Assembly (NCBI GenBank): GCA_009691385.1 | Contig: SICQ01000003.1 | Location: 1-37,070 of the forward strand | Origin: Candidatus Ryanbacteria bacterium | GTDB taxonomy: Bacteria > Patescibacteriota > Minisyncoccia > Ryanbacterales > GWA2-47-10b | DNA: 37,070 bases | Direction: 5' to 3' | Shown here: positions 22,538 through 31,298 of the stretch, piece by piece | How positions within the stretch are numbered: the stretch's first letter is position 1 | Layout of the letters: every line of letters begins with the position of its first letter | Position numbers and translations under genes: made by a program | Notes under the pieces: model-generated | The model's database searches: none | Told to the model about the DNA's origin: nothing | What the model saw: the letters and a program-made list of their open reading frames with translations, nothing else

Positions 22538-25078
22538 TTAAAAGACCATTGAGGTCATCTCCTGCCAGTTTGCACCTCGCTTCACCTCAGCGATGATTGG
22601 TACTGAAAACTCTGGCACCCGCTCCATGATCGCCTTGATCGTACTTACGGTCTCGGCGATTTTTTCTTTTTTAATTTCAAATACAAGTTCGTCGTGCACC
22701 TGCAGCAGCATGCGCACATCATGGTTATCGCGCGAAAGCTTGAGCTCATGCGCGATATCAATCATCGCGCGCTTTACAATATCGGCAGCGGTTCCTTGTA
22801 CGGGCGCGTTGACCGCCATGCGCTCGGATTCTTTGCGTATATATTCAAATGATGAACGGAGGTTGGGTAAAAACCGCTTGCGGCCAAAAAATGTTTTGAC
22901 ATATCCTTTCTCTCTTCCCTCATGTATCGTACGCTCGCGGTATTCTTCAATACCTGGAAACTCTTGCAAATAGTTATCGAGCGCCGCCTCAGCTTCCGCG
23001 ACAGTCATGTGACCTGTCTCGGCGAGTGAGCGTGCACCCATGCCATACAAAATACCAAAGTTAACCGTCTTGGCGCGTCTACGCATCTCACTTGTTACCT
23101 CACCTGTCGCCACATGAAAAATCTCTGATGCGGTACGGGTATGGATGTCTTCACTAGTTTGAAAGGCGTGCGTGAGTTTTTTATCGCCTGAAAGTTGTGC
23201 TGCAATTCTGAGCTCGAGTTGAGAATAGTCAAACGCAAGAAGCTCATATCCCTTGGGTGCGACGAACGCGCGACGGATGCTACGACCAAGCTCTGATTTT
23301 ATCGGAATGTTTTGAAGATTAGGGTTTGACGATGAAAGACGCCCTGTGGCCGCCCCTGTCTCATTAAATGTCGTATGCACCCGACCATCGGACCCGATGA
23401 GCTTTGGAAGTGCCGTAATATAGGTAGAAAGCAATTTTGAAATCTCGCGATATCTAATCAACATATCAATGATCGGGTGGAGTTCACGCAATTTTATGAG
23501 CTCTGAGAATTGCGTTGATACCGCCTTGGTAGAAGTTTTGCGAATACCCTTGGTAGATAATCCGAGTTTTTCAAAAAGTATTACCGAGAGTTGTTTTGGC
23601 GAGTTGATATCAAACTCTTCTCCCGCCGCCTTCCAAATATCAGCTTCGAGTACATGCTCTTCATGCTCCGCCTCTTTTGATAGTTTTGCGAGTACCGCAG
23701 TATCGAGCGTGATGCCCGCCTCCTCCATCTCAAATAAAATCGCCACGAGCGGCAATTCAAAATCAAAATATATGGGTGCGAGATCCTCTTTCTCTATTTT
23801 CTTTTTGAGAGTATCTGCGAGGCGCACAACCTCGGCGATAGTTAACGGTTTACCTTCGAGCAAATCGCCGAGCGACAATCCGCGCTCATCGGGATTGAGT
23901 ATCCACGCGCCAAGCTTTGTATCAAATGACACCGGAAAGCTCGCGCCCAAAAATGTCATGAGCGCGTGTGCGTCGTGCACGATTACTTCTTTTGAATCGC
24001 CCAAAAGCGCCAAAAGTACCGCGCGTTGCGCCTGCGGCACACTATATGTATTTGCATCAACACCGAGTATCAACCCATCTTCACCAAAGAAAAGCGCCGC
24101 GCGCGCGCCTGCCTCTACACTGTCATCGAGCTCCTTGTGCACCACTATTGGCTTTTCTTCTTCTTTCTTTGGTGGGGCGCCAGCATCTTGCAAACGCGAG
24201 ATAAGACTGGGGAAATGAAACTTGCGAAAAATCTTTGATACTTCTTCGATAGGAATACTCGCAAATGCCATACTACCCAAATCCGCTTCCACCGGCGCGT
24301 CTCGGCGAATTGTTGCGAGTTCTTTTGAAAAGAGTGCGTCTTCTTCACCTTCGATTAGCAATTTTTTGATGCGATCCTTGAGAAATGCTGGTGATTTTTT
24401 CTCTTTTTTAAGTTTTATATACATCTCTTCGATCGAACCGTAGTGTTTAATCAGATCGGTAGCACTCTTCTCGCCAATCCCCTTGATGCCGATAATGTTA
24501 TCGGATGGATCGCCTTTCAAGCCCTTATAGTCAGCAATGAGTGTAGGACCAAAACCAAATCGTTCGAGCACCTTCTCTTCGTCATACAATATCGTATCTT
24601 CGATGCCTTTGCGGAGCGTGTAGACCATCACGCGCTTATCGTCGATGAGCTGCATCGTATCCATATCACCCGACGCGATGATGATGGTCAAATCTTTTTC
24701 TTTTTTGAATTTCTCGACGAGCGTGCCCAAAATATCATCTGCCTCAAAACCGGGTGCCTCGAGTATCGGTATGCCAAACGCACGAAATACTTCTTTTACT
24801 TTATCGAACTGTGGGATGAGATCGCTCTTGGTCTCGGATCTCGTCGCCTTATAATTTTCATACACAATATGCCGAAAAGTAGGCTCCTCTCTATCAAACG
24901 CGGCGACGATGTGTGTAGGGCGCAGATCGCGAATCAATTTTAACAGCACCGCTGACACACCGTAGACAGCGCCAAGTGGCTCACCGGACGGTGACGCAAA
25001 TGACGGCAACGCGTGAAATGACCGGTGGATGAGCGCGTGCGCATCGAGGATGACTAATTTTTTTAGTTCACGCGCCAT
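22538..25078 (-). CDS. polA: DNA polymerase I, proofreading site degenerate
   Basis: The 846-residue enzyme fills gaps and removes RNA primers. The 5'-3' exonuclease domain (about residues 1-290) shows LVILDAHALIHRSFHALP, AFDREEPTFRH and GIKGIGEKSATDLI. The middle domain lacks the DxE and other acidic motifs of an active 3'-5' exonuclease (it reads ALFFGEDGLILGVDANTY), so proofreading is probably lost, as in Taq. The polymerase domain is intact: DYSQLELRIAA (motif A), RRRAKTVNFGILYGMG (motif B) and QVHDELVFEI (motif C). It overlaps tsaE by 11 bp and precedes the kinase-regulator pair and holA in one run. Confidence 0.97.
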   Translation of the reverse strand: MARELKKLVILDAHALIHRSFHALPSFASPSGEPLGAVYGVSAVLLKLIRDLRPTHIVAAFDREEPTFRHIVYENYKATRSETKSDLIPQFDKVKEVFRAFGIPILEAPGFEADDILGTLVEKFKKEKDLTIIIASGDMDTMQLIDDKRVMVYTLRKGIEDTILYDEEKVLERFGFGPTLIADYKGLKGDPSDNIIGIKGIGEKSATDLIKHYGSIEEMYIKLKKEKKSPAFLKDRIKKLLIEGEEDALFSKELATIRRDAPVEADLGSMAFASIPIEEVSKIFRKFHFPSLISRLQDAGAPPKKEEEKPIVVHKELDDSVEAGARAALFFGEDGLILGVDANTYSVPQAQRAVLLALLGDSKEVIVHDAHALMTFLGASFPVSFDTKLGAWILNPDERGLSLGDLLEGKPLTIAEVVRLADTLKKKIEKEDLAPIYFDFELPLVAILFEMEEAGITLDTAVLAKLSKEAEHEEHVLEADIWKAAGEEFDINSPKQLSVILFEKLGLSTKGIRKTSTKAVSTQFSELIKLRELHPIIDMLIRYREISKLLSTYITALPKLIGSDGRVHTTFNETGAATGRLSSSNPNLQNIPIKSELGRSIRRAFVAPKGYELLAFDYSQLELRIAAQLSGDKKLTHAFQTSEDIHTRTASEIFHVATGEVTSEMRRRAKTVNFGILYGMGARSLAETGHMTVAEAEAALDNYLQEFPGIEEYRERTIHEGREKGYVKTFFGRKRFLPNLRSSFEYIRKESERMAVNAPVQGTAADIVKRAMIDIAHELKLSRDNHDVRMLLQVHDELVFEIKKEKIAETVSTIKAIMERVPEFSVPIIAEVKRGANWQEMTSMVF

Positions 25079-25526
25079 GTCTAAATCTCACCATGCGTTC
25101 AGCGCGCGCGATATGTCTAAACGAGATCCAAACGGTATCTTTGGGAAATATTTTTTTGGCGCGCTCCGCCCACTCGACGACCACGATATTTTTTGGATCT
25201 AAAATAATTTTTTTAAAGGCGATTGCGTCGAGCTCGCGTGGCGACTTGATACGATATAAATCAAAATGCCATACATTTTTAAATGTAGAACCTTTGAGTG
25301 CGTAGCGTTTTGCTATCACGAAAGTTGGCGACTGAAGTCGCCCGCGCACGCCAAGGCCGTTCGCGACACTCTGCGTAAAAAAAGTTTTACCTGCACCAAG
25401 CTCGCCCGAAAGCGCGAGGCAAAGGGCGTATTTTTTATTTCTGGCAACTGTCTTAATCTGGGCGCCAAAGAGTTTGCCGAGCGCGCGTGTCGCCTCGGGA
25501 GTTTTGAGTGCATAGGTAAGCTCCAT
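25068..25526 (-). CDS. tsaE: tRNA threonylcarbamoyladenosine biosynthesis ATPase TsaE
   Basis: TsaE is the small P-loop ATPase that cycles the TsaB-TsaD complex during t6A synthesis. The 152-residue protein has Walker A SGELGAGKTFFTQSVANGLGV, the switch-like SPTFVIAKRY, HFDLYRI near residue 96 and the Walker B-like VVVEWAER. Length and order are normal for the family. A GGAGG ribosome site lies just before the ATG at 25526, unusual for this window. It opens the run tsaE-polA-kinase-regulator-holA and overlaps polA by 11 bp. tsaD is found separately at 6286-7350. Confidence 0.95.
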   Translation of the reverse strand: MELTYALKTPEATRALGKLFGAQIKTVARNKKYALCLALSGELGAGKTFFTQSVANGLGVRGRLQSPTFVIAKRYALKGSTFKNVWHFDLYRIKSPRELDAIAFKKIILDPKNIVVVEWAERAKKIFPKDTVWISFRHIARAERMVRFRHGA

Positions 25527-25555: not shown

Positions 25556-25596
25556 AAAAGCAAAAACGACCGTTCCCATGATTGGGTTCGGTCGTT
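25556..25596 (-). terminator. Terminator downstream of the 25632-26138 gene
   Basis: On the minus strand AACGACCG and CGGTCGTT pair around CCC/GGG and are followed by TTTTTGCTTTT. It separates the orphan gene from tsaE. Confidence 0.85.
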
Positions 25597-25604
25597 CTCG
25601 GTTG

Positions 25605-25627
25605 GGAGCCCCGTATGACGGGGCTCC
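25605..25627 (-). terminator. Second perfect hairpin right after the 25632-26138 stop
   Basis: GGAGCCCCGT-ATG-ACGGGGCTCC is a perfect 10-bp stem with a 3-nt loop, 4 bp after the stop codon. It lacks a T-run, so it may protect the mRNA 3' end rather than terminate; the true terminator follows at 25556-25596. Confidence 0.6.
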
Positions 25628-25631
25628 ATGT

Positions 25632-26138
25632 TTATTCATCTTCTGACTCGACATCCTCCTCGCGGATACCGGCTGCCGGCTCGACGGTGCGTCCGCTGTT
25701 GCGGATCGCCTCATCGTAGGTGGCGCGATACTCGTCAGACTCGGTCGCATCTGCGACAGCAGACTTGCCGTCGTAGCGACCGTCTGCGCGCCCCTTGGCA
25801 CGATGACAGGCAATGTCATCATCAGCACAGCTGGTGTCCACCAACTTGGTACGGCCAAAGACAAGGCCGAGACTGAAATTGACGATCCCGAGTGGAACAT
25901 CGATCAGCCCTGGCTCGCGCTCGACCCGAATGTTTGGGTCTCTACGCTGGACCACGATCACGCGATCATGGTGACGGTAACCGCCGTTGTAGCGATTGCC
26001 ACCACCGTTCCAGCGACTGCTGTGCGAACGGCCTCCGCGCTCCCAGCACATGTTGCCGTAGGTGCAGCGGGCTTCCGCTGCAATCGGTGCGATGAGCGTC
26101 ACCATCAGAAGAATCAAGATTGAAAGAACAGTCTTCAT
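25632..26138 (-). CDS. Orphan secreted protein, GC-rich, unknown function
   Basis: I start at ATG 26138, because GGAGG lies 5 nt upstream; the longer ORF start at 26150 is inside that ribosome site. The 168-residue product begins with a signal peptide, MKTVLSILILLMVTLIAPIAAEA. Next comes a Gly/Arg/Asn/His/Ser-rich region (about residues 32-58), then a hydrophobic stretch, GLIDVPLGIVNFSLGLVFG, and an acidic tail ending EEDVESEDE. Four cysteines could form two disulfides. No family is recognised. The promoter is consensus (TTGACA-17-TATAAT), the 5' UTR folds, and two hairpins follow the stop. High expression of an envelope or exported protein is likely. Its GC content is higher than its neighbours. 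Confidence 0.7.
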   Translation of the reverse strand: MKTVLSILILLMVTLIAPIAAEARCTYGNMCWERGGRSHSSRWNGGGNRYNGGYRHHDRVIVVQRRDPNIRVEREPGLIDVPLGIVNFSLGLVFGRTKLVDTSCADDDIACHRAKGRADGRYDGKSAVADATESDEYRATYDEAIRNSGRTVEPAAGIREEDVESEDE

Positions 26139-26154
26139 CGTAACCTCCATATCT

Positions 26155-26177
26155 CAGCCGAGACGCCATGCCTCGGC
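26155..26177 (-). promoter_or_regulatory. 5' UTR hairpin upstream of the 25632-26138 gene
   Basis: AGCCGAG and CTCGGCT form a 7-bp stem around a 9-nt loop in the leader, between the promoter and the GGAGG site. It could stabilise the mRNA. No regulatory ligand is suggested by the sequence. Confidence 0.5.
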
Positions 26178-26199
26178 TAGCAGTTCAGTGTACATGGCT

Positions 26200-26228
26200 A
26201 TTATACTACCAAAAATACCTTTTGTCAA
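26200..26228 (-). promoter_or_regulatory. Consensus sigma70 promoter of the 25632-26138 gene
   Basis: The minus strand has perfect TTGACA (26223-26228), a 17-bp spacer and perfect TATAAT (26200-26205). This is the best promoter match in the window. Confidence 0.9.
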
Positions 26229-26269
26229 TACCTCCAAAAGCCCTTATTATATGCTAGGAATAAGACAAT

Positions 26270-27127
26270 ATGGGTGATTTAAAGTCAGCAATCGCATCAG
26301 CATCAGCGGTACTCATCGTACTCCCCGACTCGGTGCGTGATAAAGATTATTTGGCGGCTTTGCAGATACAGAAAATAGCGCCACAAAAAACAGAACTTAT
26401 CGCACCTGAGGCAAAAGAGCTCGAATGGAAAGATACCTTTGGTCTTGAACGCGGCAAGCGTGAATTTGTTATTGATATCAACACAGCACTCACGCCCGTA
26501 GATGAACTCCGTTACGAAAAGACTGATACTACCCTCTCGATCTACCTCTCACATAAAGGCGCCTTTAATGAAAAGGCACTTTCATGGGGTGAGCATCGCG
26601 CGCCTGCCGATCTTTTTATCACTCTTGGTTTTTCATCGGAAAGTGAGGCAAAAAAAGCAATCGAAAACCTTCCTCGCAAGGGAGCTGCGCGACATATCTG
26701 GGTAGAAGGAGATACCAATGGCCACAGTGCGCCCGCTACCACGAAACTCTCGACGATATCGGCGGGTCTTTTGGGAAGATTGGTTGTCCGTTCACGCATT
26801 GATACTGATACCAATACTCTTTGGTCATTCATCACCCGTGATGATTTTGCAAAGACAAATGCGGGTCCGCACGAACTCCCCAGTCTTATGGCTACCTATG
26901 CGTCACTCGCGTCACTACCCGAACACGCCTTAGTCTTTTGGCAACATGATGACGCGGGTACCCAAGGATTTTTTAGATCAGAGAACGCACAACTAGTGAA
27001 TGATATCGCGCGACACCTCGGGAAAATGCCAGAAAACCCACACTATGTGACACTCGCTTCGTTTGCCAACTTTATCGAGGCGGAGATGGAGACACGCAAA
27101 TTGCTCCGTGAACTCAAAGTGCGCTAG
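26270..27127 (+). CDS. Unknown protein, possibly a degenerate DHH-type phosphoesterase
   Basis: The 285-residue soluble protein precedes pilB. The N-terminal stretch SASAVLIVLPDSVRDKDYLAALQIQKIAPQKTELIAP resembles the first Rossmann-like unit of DHH phosphoesterases. The C-terminal HALVFWQHDDAGTQGFFRSENAQLVNDIARHLGKM resembles the DHHA1 substrate-binding end. The catalytic DHH triad and other acidic metal ligands are not visible, so if related it is probably inactive as an enzyme. This resemblance is by eye and weak. Its stop TAG forms the first bases of a TAGAAT box before pilB, which starts 9 bp downstream. A TATGCT box and AGGA lie upstream of its ATG. Confidence 0.6.
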   Translation: MGDLKSAIASASAVLIVLPDSVRDKDYLAALQIQKIAPQKTELIAPEAKELEWKDTFGLERGKREFVIDINTALTPVDELRYEKTDTTLSIYLSHKGAFNEKALSWGEHRAPADLFITLGFSSESEAKKAIENLPRKGAARHIWVEGDTNGHSAPATTKLSTISAGLLGRLVVRSRIDTDTNTLWSFITRDDFAKTNAGPHELPSLMATYASLASLPEHALVFWQHDDAGTQGFFRSENAQLVNDIARHLGKMPENPHYVTLASFANFIEAEMETRKLLRELKVR

Positions 27128-27136: not shown

Positions 27137-28807
27137 GTGGCATTTGACGAAGAAGAACAAAAAGAAAAGCTCAGTCAACTCCAACAAAAAGAGGAGGAAG
27201 ATTTAGCTCAACTGCTTGCTAAAAGATATAAAACTCCTTATCTCAACTTGGGGCGTGCCTTTATTGATCTTGATGCGCTTAAACTTGTACCGAGAGATCG
27301 CGCCGAGGCGGCTGGTCTTGCGGTCGTACAATCAACTGGCAAAAAACTACAAATCGCTGTCAAAAATCCAACACTCGATAAAGCAAAAGAAATAGTGACC
27401 GAACTACGCCGCGATGGCTATCAGCCACAACTTTTTTTGGTATCCATGCGAAGCTTAAAACATGCGTGGGTTCGCTACGAGGAAGCTGGCGAAGAAACCC
27501 CGAGCATTACCAATGTCATTGATATTTCAAAAGATAAGATTGTTGAATTCCGCCGTGAGATAAAAACGACAAAAGATTTTGAACGGATGTTGAGTGAAAA
27601 AATCTCACAGGGTAAAACCAAACGAGTGACTGACTTGCTTGATTATGTATTAGGAGGCGCATTTGAACTTGTCGTCTCTGATATCCATGTCGAACCGGCA
27701 GAAGATGCCGTACATATGCGCGTTCGTCTCGACGGTTTACTCCAAGATATCGTGAGCTTCTCACACGATATGCACAAAATGCTATTGGTGCGCATCAAGC
27801 TTGTCTGCGAACTCAAACTCAATATTCATGATAAATCACAAGACGGCCGCTTTACTATTCGCGCAGGTGAATCTGATGTGGAAGTGCGCGTCTCAACCCT
27901 CCCCGGCCCCTATGGCGAATCGATTGTCATGCGTATTTTGCACCCACGCGCCATTGAGACATCGTTTGAAGATCTCGGTATCCACCCCGTACTTCTTGAA
28001 CTTATTGAAAGAGAAATCCAAAAACCAAATGGCATGATCATCACCACCGGCCCTACCGGATCTGGTAAAACCACCACACTCTATGCGTTTATCAAAAAAC
28101 TCAATGAGCCGGGGGTGAAGATTATCACCATCGAAGATCCTATTGAATATCACATCAAAGGCATTACCCAGACGCAAATCAATAAAGAAGCTGGCTACAC
28201 CTTTGAGACAGGGCTCTCGGCAATCGTGCGTCAAGACCCTGATATCATTCTAGTCGGTGAGATGCGCAACCGCGAAACCGCGGAGATTGGCATGCAGGCG
28301 GCACTCACTGGTCACCTCGTATTCTCCACACTCCACACCAACAACGCACCTGGCACCATCCCCCGCCTTATTGATCTTGGTGTACCACCAAATATCATCG
28401 CGCCTGCCATCAACCTTGCTATCGCCCAGCGCCTCGTGCGTATCTTGTGTCCGCACTGCAAAAAACAAATGCCGCCGACACCCGAACAAATGACAACAAT
28501 AAAAAAACTGATGGAAACTTTGCCCCAAAAATATACGCGCCCGACGCTCGACAATATATCACTCTGTACACCGGGCGGATGTGGTGAGTGTAACTTTCTC
28601 GGATACAAAGGACGCCTCGCGGTCTTTGAAGCATTTTTAATTGATGACGATATGGAGCGCCTTATCTTAAAAAATCCTTCGGAAGCAGCGGTACGCGAGG
28701 CCGCAATCGCACAAGGAATGGCAACACTCGAACAAGATGGCATCTTAAAGCTCTTGCAGGGCATCACCTCGTGGGACGAACTCAACCGCATCGTCGGTTT
28801 AATCTAA
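27137..28807 (+). CDS. pilB: Type IV pilus assembly ATPase (PilB/GspE family)
   Basis: This hexameric motor powers pilus extension or secretion. The 556-residue protein starts at GTG. The N-terminal GspE/MshEN-type domain is PYLNLGRAFIDLDALKLVPRDRAEAAGLAVV. The core carries Walker A TTGPTGSGKTTTLYAF near residue 305, the Asp box TIEDPIEYHIKG, Walker B DPDIILVGEMRN and the His box GHLVFSTLHTNNA. A zinc-type tetracysteine follows: CPHC near 438 and CTPGGCGEC near 475. The length is normal. It is the only pilus gene in the window, so pilin and PilC must lie elsewhere. It follows the DHH-like gene with 9 bp between them. Confidence 0.95.
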   Translation: MAFDEEEQKEKLSQLQQKEEEDLAQLLAKRYKTPYLNLGRAFIDLDALKLVPRDRAEAAGLAVVQSTGKKLQIAVKNPTLDKAKEIVTELRRDGYQPQLFLVSMRSLKHAWVRYEEAGEETPSITNVIDISKDKIVEFRREIKTTKDFERMLSEKISQGKTKRVTDLLDYVLGGAFELVVSDIHVEPAEDAVHMRVRLDGLLQDIVSFSHDMHKMLLVRIKLVCELKLNIHDKSQDGRFTIRAGESDVEVRVSTLPGPYGESIVMRILHPRAIETSFEDLGIHPVLLELIEREIQKPNGMIITTGPTGSGKTTTLYAFIKKLNEPGVKIITIEDPIEYHIKGITQTQINKEAGYTFETGLSAIVRQDPDIILVGEMRNRETAEIGMQAALTGHLVFSTLHTNNAPGTIPRLIDLGVPPNIIAPAINLAIAQRLVRILCPHCKKQMPPTPEQMTTIKKLMETLPQKYTRPTLDNISLCTPGGCGECNFLGYKGRLAVFEAFLIDDDMERLILKNPSEAAVREAAIAQGMATLEQDGILKLLQGITSWDELNRIVGLI

Positions 28808-29163: not shown

Positions 29164-29196
29164 CTTTCTCGCAAGAATCTCCAGACAATGTGCCCA
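29164..29196. repeat. 33-bp direct repeat, left copy
   Basis: CTTTCTCGCAAGAATCTCCA and the following 13 bases are identical to 30028-30060. The two copies bracket the transposase cassette. A partial inverted copy lies at 30217-30246. Confidence 0.85.
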
Positions 29197-29203
29197 TGCG
29201 CAT

Positions 29204-29242: not shown

Positions 29243-29884
29243 CTATTCCAGCAAGGACCCTTCGAGCTCTTTGGATAAAGATTTGCGTGCAATAATATCG
29301 GCGAGGGATGCTCGCGCAAAATCCTTGTACTCCCTCGCGTCCTGAAACTGCTTGAGTATTATTGCGGTGTTACATAATTTTTTATTTGTGTTGCCAATAT
29401 ATTCTTCCCAACTACTCTTGATAGCTTGCTTAATCCCGTGCACCTCATTGTTAAGATTAATATATGCGCTCACATGAAGTAGATATTCGTTTGAGACAAT
29501 GTGAGTTGAACGAAATTTACCAGCAAACAAAACGCCGCTTCTGTTGTGTCGGTGGTTAAAATATTTTGTGTAGCCACCAACCAATCTTTTAACAAATTCG
29601 CTTACGCCGTTTTCTACCTGTTGCCGCACGAGCAAATGAAAATGGTTTGGGTTAAGACAATAACAAACGATATCTACCAATCGACCTTTACGAGATGTTA
29701 CACGACCAAGTCTTCTGTCGAGCATGTATTCGTAAATACTTCCAACGGGCTCAATCGTGTTGAAAATCTCAACGCTCTTGAGAAATCTGTTGAGATCTTT
29801 TCCATCCATGAATATCTTCCTTTTATCAACCCCGCGATTGCAAATATGATAGTGCTCCCCAGCAGCAAAGATTGTCTTTCCCAT
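29243..29884 (-). CDS. IS200/REP-associated tyrosine transposase (Y1/HUH family)
   Basis: The 213-residue protein has the Y1_Tnp fold. It starts with GEHYHICNRGVDKRKIFMD. The HUH motif appears as CLNPNHFHLLVRQ near residue 75, and VKRLVGGYTKYFNHRHNRSGVLFAGKFRS follows, containing the candidate catalytic Tyr. LLHVSAYINLNNE lies in the C-terminal half. This is the RAYT or transposase-17 type that cuts single-stranded DNA at palindromes. Palindromes sit 2 bp after the stop and 17 bp before the start, as expected for its recognition sites. The frame is complete, so it may be active. The C-terminal extension has no recognised domain. Confidence 0.88.
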   Translation of the reverse strand: MGKTIFAAGEHYHICNRGVDKRKIFMDGKDLNRFLKSVEIFNTIEPVGSIYEYMLDRRLGRVTSRKGRLVDIVCYCLNPNHFHLLVRQQVENGVSEFVKRLVGGYTKYFNHRHNRSGVLFAGKFRSTHIVSNEYLLHVSAYINLNNEVHGIKQAIKSSWEEYIGNTNKKLCNTAIILKQFQDAREYKDFARASLADIIARKSLSKELEGSLLE

Positions 29885-30027: not shown

Positions 30028-30060
30028 CTTTCTCGCAAGAATCTCCAGACAATGTGCCCA
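30028..30060. repeat. 33-bp direct repeat, right copy
   Basis: This is identical to 29164-29196. It also forms the left arm of the fold-back element that ends near 30247. Confidence 0.85.
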
Positions 30061-30247
30061 GGCATGGGTGCCACAGGCTGAAGGCCTCTTCGAGGAGCAA
30101 TCGCGCCGACCCCTCCTCGCAGAGCGCAATATGCTTTAGAATAAAGCTACATTATGCGCTGTGAGGAAGGGGACCAGATTGTCCGTGTACTAAAAGAAGG
30201 CCCAGATAAGGTAAACCTCAATTGTCTGGAGATTTTCAGGAGAAAGC
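30028..30247. repeat. Fold-back (MITE-like) element or structured RNA region upstream of ruvB
   Basis: The 409-bp gap 29885-30293 holds no recognised gene. Within it, CTTTCTC...AATCTCCAGACAAT (30028-30053) is inverted at 30220-30246 (ATTGTCTGGAGATT...GAGAAAG). A second nested inverted repeat pairs CCCCTCCTCGCAGAGCGCA (30110-30128) with TGCGCTGTGAGGAAGGGG (30155-30172) around a small CTTTAG/AATAAAG-type loop. The whole could fold into one long stem. I compared it by eye with RNase P, tmRNA and SRP RNA and found no match. To the left, 29930-30027 shows only short stems. Confidence 0.55.
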
Positions 30248-30282
30248 CTCTTCTGAAGAACAATGACCACTATTATAGCTAA
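30154..30282 (+). CDS. Possible 42-codon ORF inside the fold-back region
   Basis: The reading frame [42 protein letters not shown] is too short for the ORF track and ends 11 bp before ruvB. A TAGAAT box lies 11 nt upstream. The part NCLEIFRRK is encoded by the inverted copy of the 33-bp repeat, whose other copies would read HCLEILARK on the minus strand. It may be a real small protein, the remains of a larger gene, or chance. No family is recognised. Confidence 0.25.
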
Positions 30283-30293
30283 AATATAGCCAC

Positions 30294-31298
30294 ATGTCAA
30301 TACCAGCCCAAAAACTCGATGACCGCTCGCTCGACAGCACCTTACGCCCCGCACGCTGGGACGAATACATTGGCCAGCACCAGATAAAAGAGAATTTGGC
30401 TATTTTGATCGAAGCTGCTAAAAAACGAGGTGAGCCGCTCGAACATTTACTCTTTTATGGCCCTGCCGGCCTTGGTAAAACGACACTCGCCCACCTTATC
30501 AAAAACGAAATGGGCGCCCAGATGAAAATAACTTCGGGCCCTGCGATCGAACGGGTGGGAGATCTTGCCTCAATCCTCACCAATCTTTCTTCGGGTGATA
30601 TTTTGTTTATTGATGAAGTACACCGGCTCAACAAACTTATCGAAGAGATCCTCTACCCCGCCATGGAAGCTCGGTCACTCGATATCATCATTGGCAAAGG
30701 GCCTGCTGCGCGCACCATACAGCTCGAGCTCCCCTCTTTTACTCTTATTGCGGCTACTACCCGCGTAGCACTCCTTTCCTCGCCGCTACGCTCACGCTTT
30801 TCGGGTGGCACCTTCCGACTCGAGTTTTATTCGGAAGATGATCTCAAAGAAATCTTACGCCGTTCGGCAAAACTTCTTGGTATCGCCGCCGAACAAGACG
30901 CGCTCACTGAAATCGCCAAGCGAAGCAGGTTTACACCGCGTGTTGCCAACCACCTTCTCAAGCGTTGTCGTGATGTAGCAGAAGTCAGGGGTGACGGTGT
31001 CATCACTGATAGAATCGCGCGTATGGCGCTCGAACTTCTTGAAATTGACGAAGTAGGACTATCGTCAGAAGATAGACGCATACTCGATATATTGATAGAA
31101 AAATTTGCTGGTGGGCCCGTAGGGGTCGCGACACTCGCCGCCGCATCATCAGAAGAAGTGAGTACTATCGAGGAGATCCATGAACCGTATCTCATGCGTC
31201 TTGGTTTTATTGAACGAACACCACGAGGTAGGATGGCTACGCGTCGCGCCTATGAGCACCTAGGTGCTACGCCACCCGCAACCCTTTTCAATACATGA
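30294..31298 (+). CDS. ruvB: Holliday junction branch migration helicase RuvB
   Basis: RuvB is the AAA+ motor that drives branch migration with RuvA. The 334-residue protein has the usual start [20 protein letters not shown], Walker [14 protein letters not shown], Walker [12 protein letters not shown], the sensor AATTR and the arginine finger SPLRSRFSG. The C-terminal winged helix includes [40 protein letters not shown]. The length is normal. It overlaps the next gene by 4 bp and starts a run that ends with yebC and ruvC. A TAAAAT box lies 8 nt before the ATG and no ribosome site is seen. Confidence 0.97.

Follow-up and report, generated by a model that had tools for sequence, protein, structure and literature searches.

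A tsaE/ORF285-pilB slot in Minisyncoccia as a candidate locus for abundant, fast-changing exported envelope proteins

The described systems closest to the protein considered here are the glycine-zipper lipoproteins (PF13441, PF13488 and PF05433) and proteins carrying a PelC/CsgG/LptE-type domain. Glycine-zipper lipoproteins resemble it in being small and exported and in containing Gly-rich or low-complexity parts, and they occupy the same chromosomal slot in genomes G003 and G008 and, by weaker matches, in G063 and G121. In contrast, our protein has neither a zipper match nor a lipobox. G003, a member of the same bacterial family, encodes the PelC/CsgG/LptE-type domain in this slot, behind the same perfect promoter, but a relation of this domain to our protein is not detectable. 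An obligately episymbiotic life has been described for cultivated Patescibacteria (PMC12206443).

The gene lies in a 37,070-nucleotide stretch (hereafter the window) of a 634-kb, 85%-complete assembly of Candidatus Ryanbacteria bacterium, class Minisyncoccia, a small bacterium whose close relatives are not in culture. We consider that, on balance, it is probably the local occupant of a conserved slot, located between tsaE and ORF285-pilB, for abundantly made exported envelope proteins. No earlier description of this slot was found in the open-access library searched, which covers few subscription journals.

The exported-protein gene and its expression signals

The gene extends from 25632 to 26138 on the minus strand and encodes a 168-aa protein of no known family; the gene is supported by its open frame and by homology in five genomes. 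Its start codon is at 26138; the catalogued 172-aa ORF begins four codons too early. The initial annotation had described a perfect consensus promoter and a GGAGG, and both were readily located on the minus strand. The −35 element TTGACA (26223..26228), which is kept in all five homologues, and the −10 element TATAAT (26200..26205) are separated by a 17-nt spacer and score 12/12 in a sigma-70-type consensus scan, and the GGAGG ribosome-binding site was read directly at 26144..26148. A hairpin just 5′ of this site (26153..26180, minus strand) was predicted by folding, in a leader that is conserved in the genus. A structured leader had also been noticed earlier: a stem was likewise predicted at this place in G001 and G002 and, from other sequences, in G005 and G003, but the folding z of the hairpin in the window was only −1.46 and the stem was weak or absent in G004. 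The two 3′ hairpins that had been noticed were recovered on the minus strand. The first (25605..25627) was predicted by folding and has a 10-bp stem with no T-run after it, whereas the second (25562..25595, stem at 25595–25566) is followed by TTTTT on direct reading and is a likely intrinsic terminator. The stretch containing both stems gave a folding z of −5.5. The second hairpin was near-identical in G001 and G002, and different hairpins with T-runs were present in G005 and G004.

The perfect TTGACA-17-TATAAT arrangement occurs seven times in the 634-kb assembly compared to 0 for a reversed-pattern control, and it is present at 5/5 homologues of the window gene. One of the seven is located some 320 bases ahead of the 16S rRNA gene, likewise in G001; another is the second perfect promoter of the window, described below, and others lie in front of short ORFs of membrane, pilin-like or Cys-containing type. 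A strong promoter for the slot gene is a well-supported prediction. As the same class of promoter precedes the 16S rRNA gene in this assembly, it fits high expression of the slot gene, and transcription would be both strong and constitutive. The slot gene scored highest of the window ORFs against a ribosomal-protein-operon codon-usage reference; the effect was very small, and codon usage is a weak expression test here, with too little bias and a reference set that includes a few non-ribosomal ORFs.

The product had been read as a secreted protein with a Gly/Arg/His/Asn-rich segment, a hydrophobic patch, an acidic tail and no known family, and our analysis agrees on each count. By inspection, the hydrophobic N-terminus up to AEA/RC is a signal peptidase I-type signal (residues 1–23, 26070..26138 on the minus strand, as are all of the segments that follow). 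Export is a well-supported prediction, and cleavage probably occurs after AEA, judging from the sequence. The protein has no lipobox and direct reading places its Cys at +2 of the cleavage site, so it does not read as a bacterial lipoprotein. Residues 24–70 (25929..26069) constitute a basic segment rich in Gly, Arg, Asn and His by composition, with 9 R and 8 G among 47 aa and a predicted pI of 10.8, compared with a computed pI of 4.4 for residues 104–168. A hydrophobic patch, evident in the sequence and in the alignment of homologues, covers residues 77–95 (25854..25910). The alignment also defined a conserved C-terminal module (residues 104–147, 25698..25829), in which C104, C111, G116, G120, A129, E133 and Y137 are invariant among five homologues, and this module is followed by the acidic tail (residues 148–168, 25635..25697), recognized from sequence and composition. 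An AlphaFold2 model of the full-length protein was too poor for a fold test (pLDDT 43); helices were predicted in the C-terminus at low confidence. Searches of Pfam (up to E 1), NCBIfam, PADLOC and PDB sequences gave no match and PHROGs gave matches at chance level only; no common cytoplasmic family, a match to which would have spoken against the initial annotation, appeared in these family searches. The glycine-zipper models PF13441, PF13488 and PF05433 likewise gave no Pfam match up to E 0.1.

The slot and its occupants

The slot is bordered on the left by tsaE (25068..25526, minus strand; PF02367, E 7e-33) and on the right by ORF285 (26270..27127, plus strand), whose family is found in 107/188 class genomes and which gave no match in a Pfam search. 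In slot loci ORF285 is adjoined by a pilB/GspE-type ATPase gene (27137..28807, plus strand), named from sequence rather than by profile; across the class loci ORF285 usually adjoins pilB. The consensus scan also revealed a 10/12 promoter-like site on the plus strand (26222..26250) that probably belongs to the divergent ORF285. Its −35 overlaps that of the slot gene, and the two may be in competition or under a common regulator.

In each of the ten order genomes, at least one leftward gene whose product has a signal peptide or lipobox lies between tsaE and the ORF285-pilB pair; G006 additionally carries an ABC transporter gene between its slot gene and tsaE. A further 40 loci came from other parts of the class; because they were chosen from a ranking by ORF285 similarity and the genomes are related, the counts are not independent. 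Of these loci, 30 keep tsaE and 10 have none there or in the fetched stretch. With classes assigned by reading N-termini, 12 of the 30 have no occupant and 16 contain exported proteins, while L125 encodes a membrane-anchored protein and L121 a protein that shows no evident signal; leftward exported proteins were therefore found in 16/18 occupied tsaE-syntenic loci outside the order. A crude hydropathy rule classed 20/27 first-in-slot proteins as exported versus 11/73 other ORFs, the former figure being biased upward since the 31 slot genes were picked with their N-termini in view.

Slot genes are also distinguished by their promoters. In the 250 bases upstream of the gene, the best sigma-70-type score was at least 11 for 21/31 slot genes, compared with 0.8% of upstream regions after shuffling and 2.1% of real windows drawn at random. 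A score of at least 10/12 was obtained for 25/27 first-in-slot genes but for 0/12 tsaE genes beside an empty slot (Fisher P 2e-8, a value that ignores relatedness and overstates independence). L121 and L125, which are outside the set of 27, have a promoter score of 10. Related bacteria keep this promoter position next to different exported proteins, so that the site has the look of a conserved locus for cell-envelope proteins that are abundant and change fast. The shared position of the slot proteins suggests, but does not prove, a shared role.

Homologues of the window protein are encoded at the same place in G001 (65% identity), G002 (40%), and G004 and G005 (about 24–25%). Of the 384 class genomes sampled, a profile of the five sequences matched 5, all of them among the 10 that represent the order. 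These proteins, including that of the window (G000), constitute an order-specific exported family that shares the tsaE/ORF285 slot, the perfect promoter, a signal peptide, the C-terminal pair C104/C111 and the G/A/E/Y positions, whereas identity falls to 24–25% at the far end and, of four Cys in the genus, only two are common to all five. The remaining occupants represent several families, none of them detectably related to the window protein. In G003, which belongs to the same bacterial family as the window, the same perfect promoter precedes a glycine-zipper lipoprotein gene (PF13441 at 3e-6, slightly below the model cut-off, and PF13488 slightly above its cut-off). The G008 occupant matched PF13441 at 5e-13, above the cut-off, and those of G063 and G121 gave weaker glycine-zipper matches. 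The G003 and G008 matches, together with the PelC-like C-terminal domain of the G003 protein described below, mark these occupants as envelope proteins, in favor of the envelope reading of the slot. A different helical C-terminus is common to the occupants in G007, G009 and G175. A resemblance by eye (C...C-R-G) between the C-terminal module of the window protein and the G121 and G008 occupants was rejected as homology, as shuffled sequences scored equally. The G003 occupant (L058/L073) is unlike that of the window despite their common bacterial family, which points to gene replacement or to loss in one lineage.

Candidate roles of the slot protein

According to the model that we favor, the consensus promoter would yield a monocistronic mRNA that carries a hairpin at its 5′ end and stops at a strong terminator, elements that are all present in the sequence. 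After Sec export and trimming of the product by signal peptidase I, the mature 145-aa protein would remain in or on the envelope. There, its flexible, basic Gly/Arg-rich half may bind anionic envelope polymers, while the C-terminal helical module, possibly closed by a C104–C111 disulfide, may contact proteins. At the cell surface, the protein would then have a structural or organising role, and its sequence could drift or be swapped between lineages. As the protein has no lipobox, retention in the envelope is unproven, and as homology to the PelC-like and glycine-zipper occupants is not detectable, function is transferable by position only. A disulfide, raised by the initial annotation as part of a disulfide-bonded core, is possible because neither C104 nor C111 varies among the five homologues. 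VKOR, DsbB and Thioredoxin_4 genes were not found in the 85%-complete Ryanbacteria assembly; DsbB was found in G001 and Thioredoxin_4 in G002.

The slot gene is under purifying selection, yet it is the fastest-diverging of its neighbours. Relative to G001, dN was 0.23 for the slot gene, 0.12 for tsaE, 0.08 for ORF285 and 0.03 for pilB, and the corresponding dN/dS values were 0.17 (with dS near saturation), 0.10, 0.04 and 0.03. We read the product as a fast-diverging envelope or surface protein that is predicted to be abundant. Fast divergence is also compatible with a host- or neighbour-contact factor that binds a partner cell after release or display, in which case the slot would vary as partners vary. 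The order-restricted distribution of the family (5/384 class genomes by profile), the different protein families found in one slot and the description of cultivated Patescibacteria as episymbionts are in keeping with this proposal. However, the Pfam, NCBIfam, PADLOC, PDB and PHROGs searches found no adhesin, toxin or binding domain in the window protein, the other occupants resemble ordinary envelope lipoproteins, and the dN/dS of 0.17, with dS near saturation, indicates no excess of amino-acid change. We regard a contact function as rather unlikely. A broader conjecture is that partner-facing surface proteins of Minisyncoccia have a dedicated locus that is strongly transcribed and is conserved in promoter and position while its coding sequence is repeatedly replaced or re-evolved, with lineage-specific partner recognition as the result; we hold it to be doubtful. 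In uncultured Patescibacteria, fast divergence hampers the detection of candidate abundant surface proteins by homology, whereas a fixed position and a near-consensus promoter should allow candidates to be picked genome by genome, such that cell cover and partner contact become testable by metatranscriptomics or metaproteomics.

It is very unlikely that the slot proteins, including that of the window, assemble like PelC, CsgG or LptE into rings or scaffolds for polymer export or surface fibres. The basis for this idea is the C-terminal domain of the G003 occupant, which is homologous to that of G063, from another family, and recurs in slot proteins of other families. A model of the domain built with nine slot sequences (pLDDT 86, pTM 0.82) has a predicted PelC-like fold, the best Foldseek match being PelC (5t11, E 5e-6, probability 1.00), followed by Cj1090c, LptE and CsgG-type lipoproteins; a solved-structure profile search with the same domain gave nothing significant. 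However, the domain profile matched nothing in the Ryanbacteria assembly or in 9/10 order genomes. The window protein also lacks a lipobox, and its C-terminus is predicted to be helical rather than beta-alpha.

A metal- or redox-responsive exported protein, in which His and Cys bind metal ions, would account for the presence of these residues in the window protein, for a His-rich stretch in the G006 occupant and for a poly-His run in that of G100. Set against this, the mature window protein has only 4 His, C104 and C111 are its sole invariant Cys, and the promoter looks unregulated, making this function highly improbable. Finally, although tsaE is just downstream on the same strand, the notion that the promoter serves tsaE-polA or an RNA, with the exported ORF being incidental, can practically be dismissed given that a hairpin and T-run separate the two genes, that tsaE beside an empty slot never had such a promoter (0/12) and that the frame is under purifying selection.

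A second perfect promoter and its structured RNA

The initial annotation had ranked the slot gene as the strongest expression unit in the window. The consensus scan identified a second, equally perfect TTGACA-17-TATAAT promoter at 30300–30272 on the minus strand, so that the slot gene is instead one of the two strongest units. The second promoter drives a structured RNA that is conserved, about 240 nt long and located between pilB and ruvB (30030–30266, minus strand), as recognized by folding (z −6.3) and covariation: 15 of its 83 predicted pairs were changed on both sides with pairing kept. No Rfam family was found for this RNA, and matches to it were present in G000–G005. A 34-base copy of its 3′ end, 97% identical, is located about 900 bases away at 29166–29199 on the minus strand, just to the left of a 213-aa ORF (29243–29884) that by eye looks like a REP-associated transposase.
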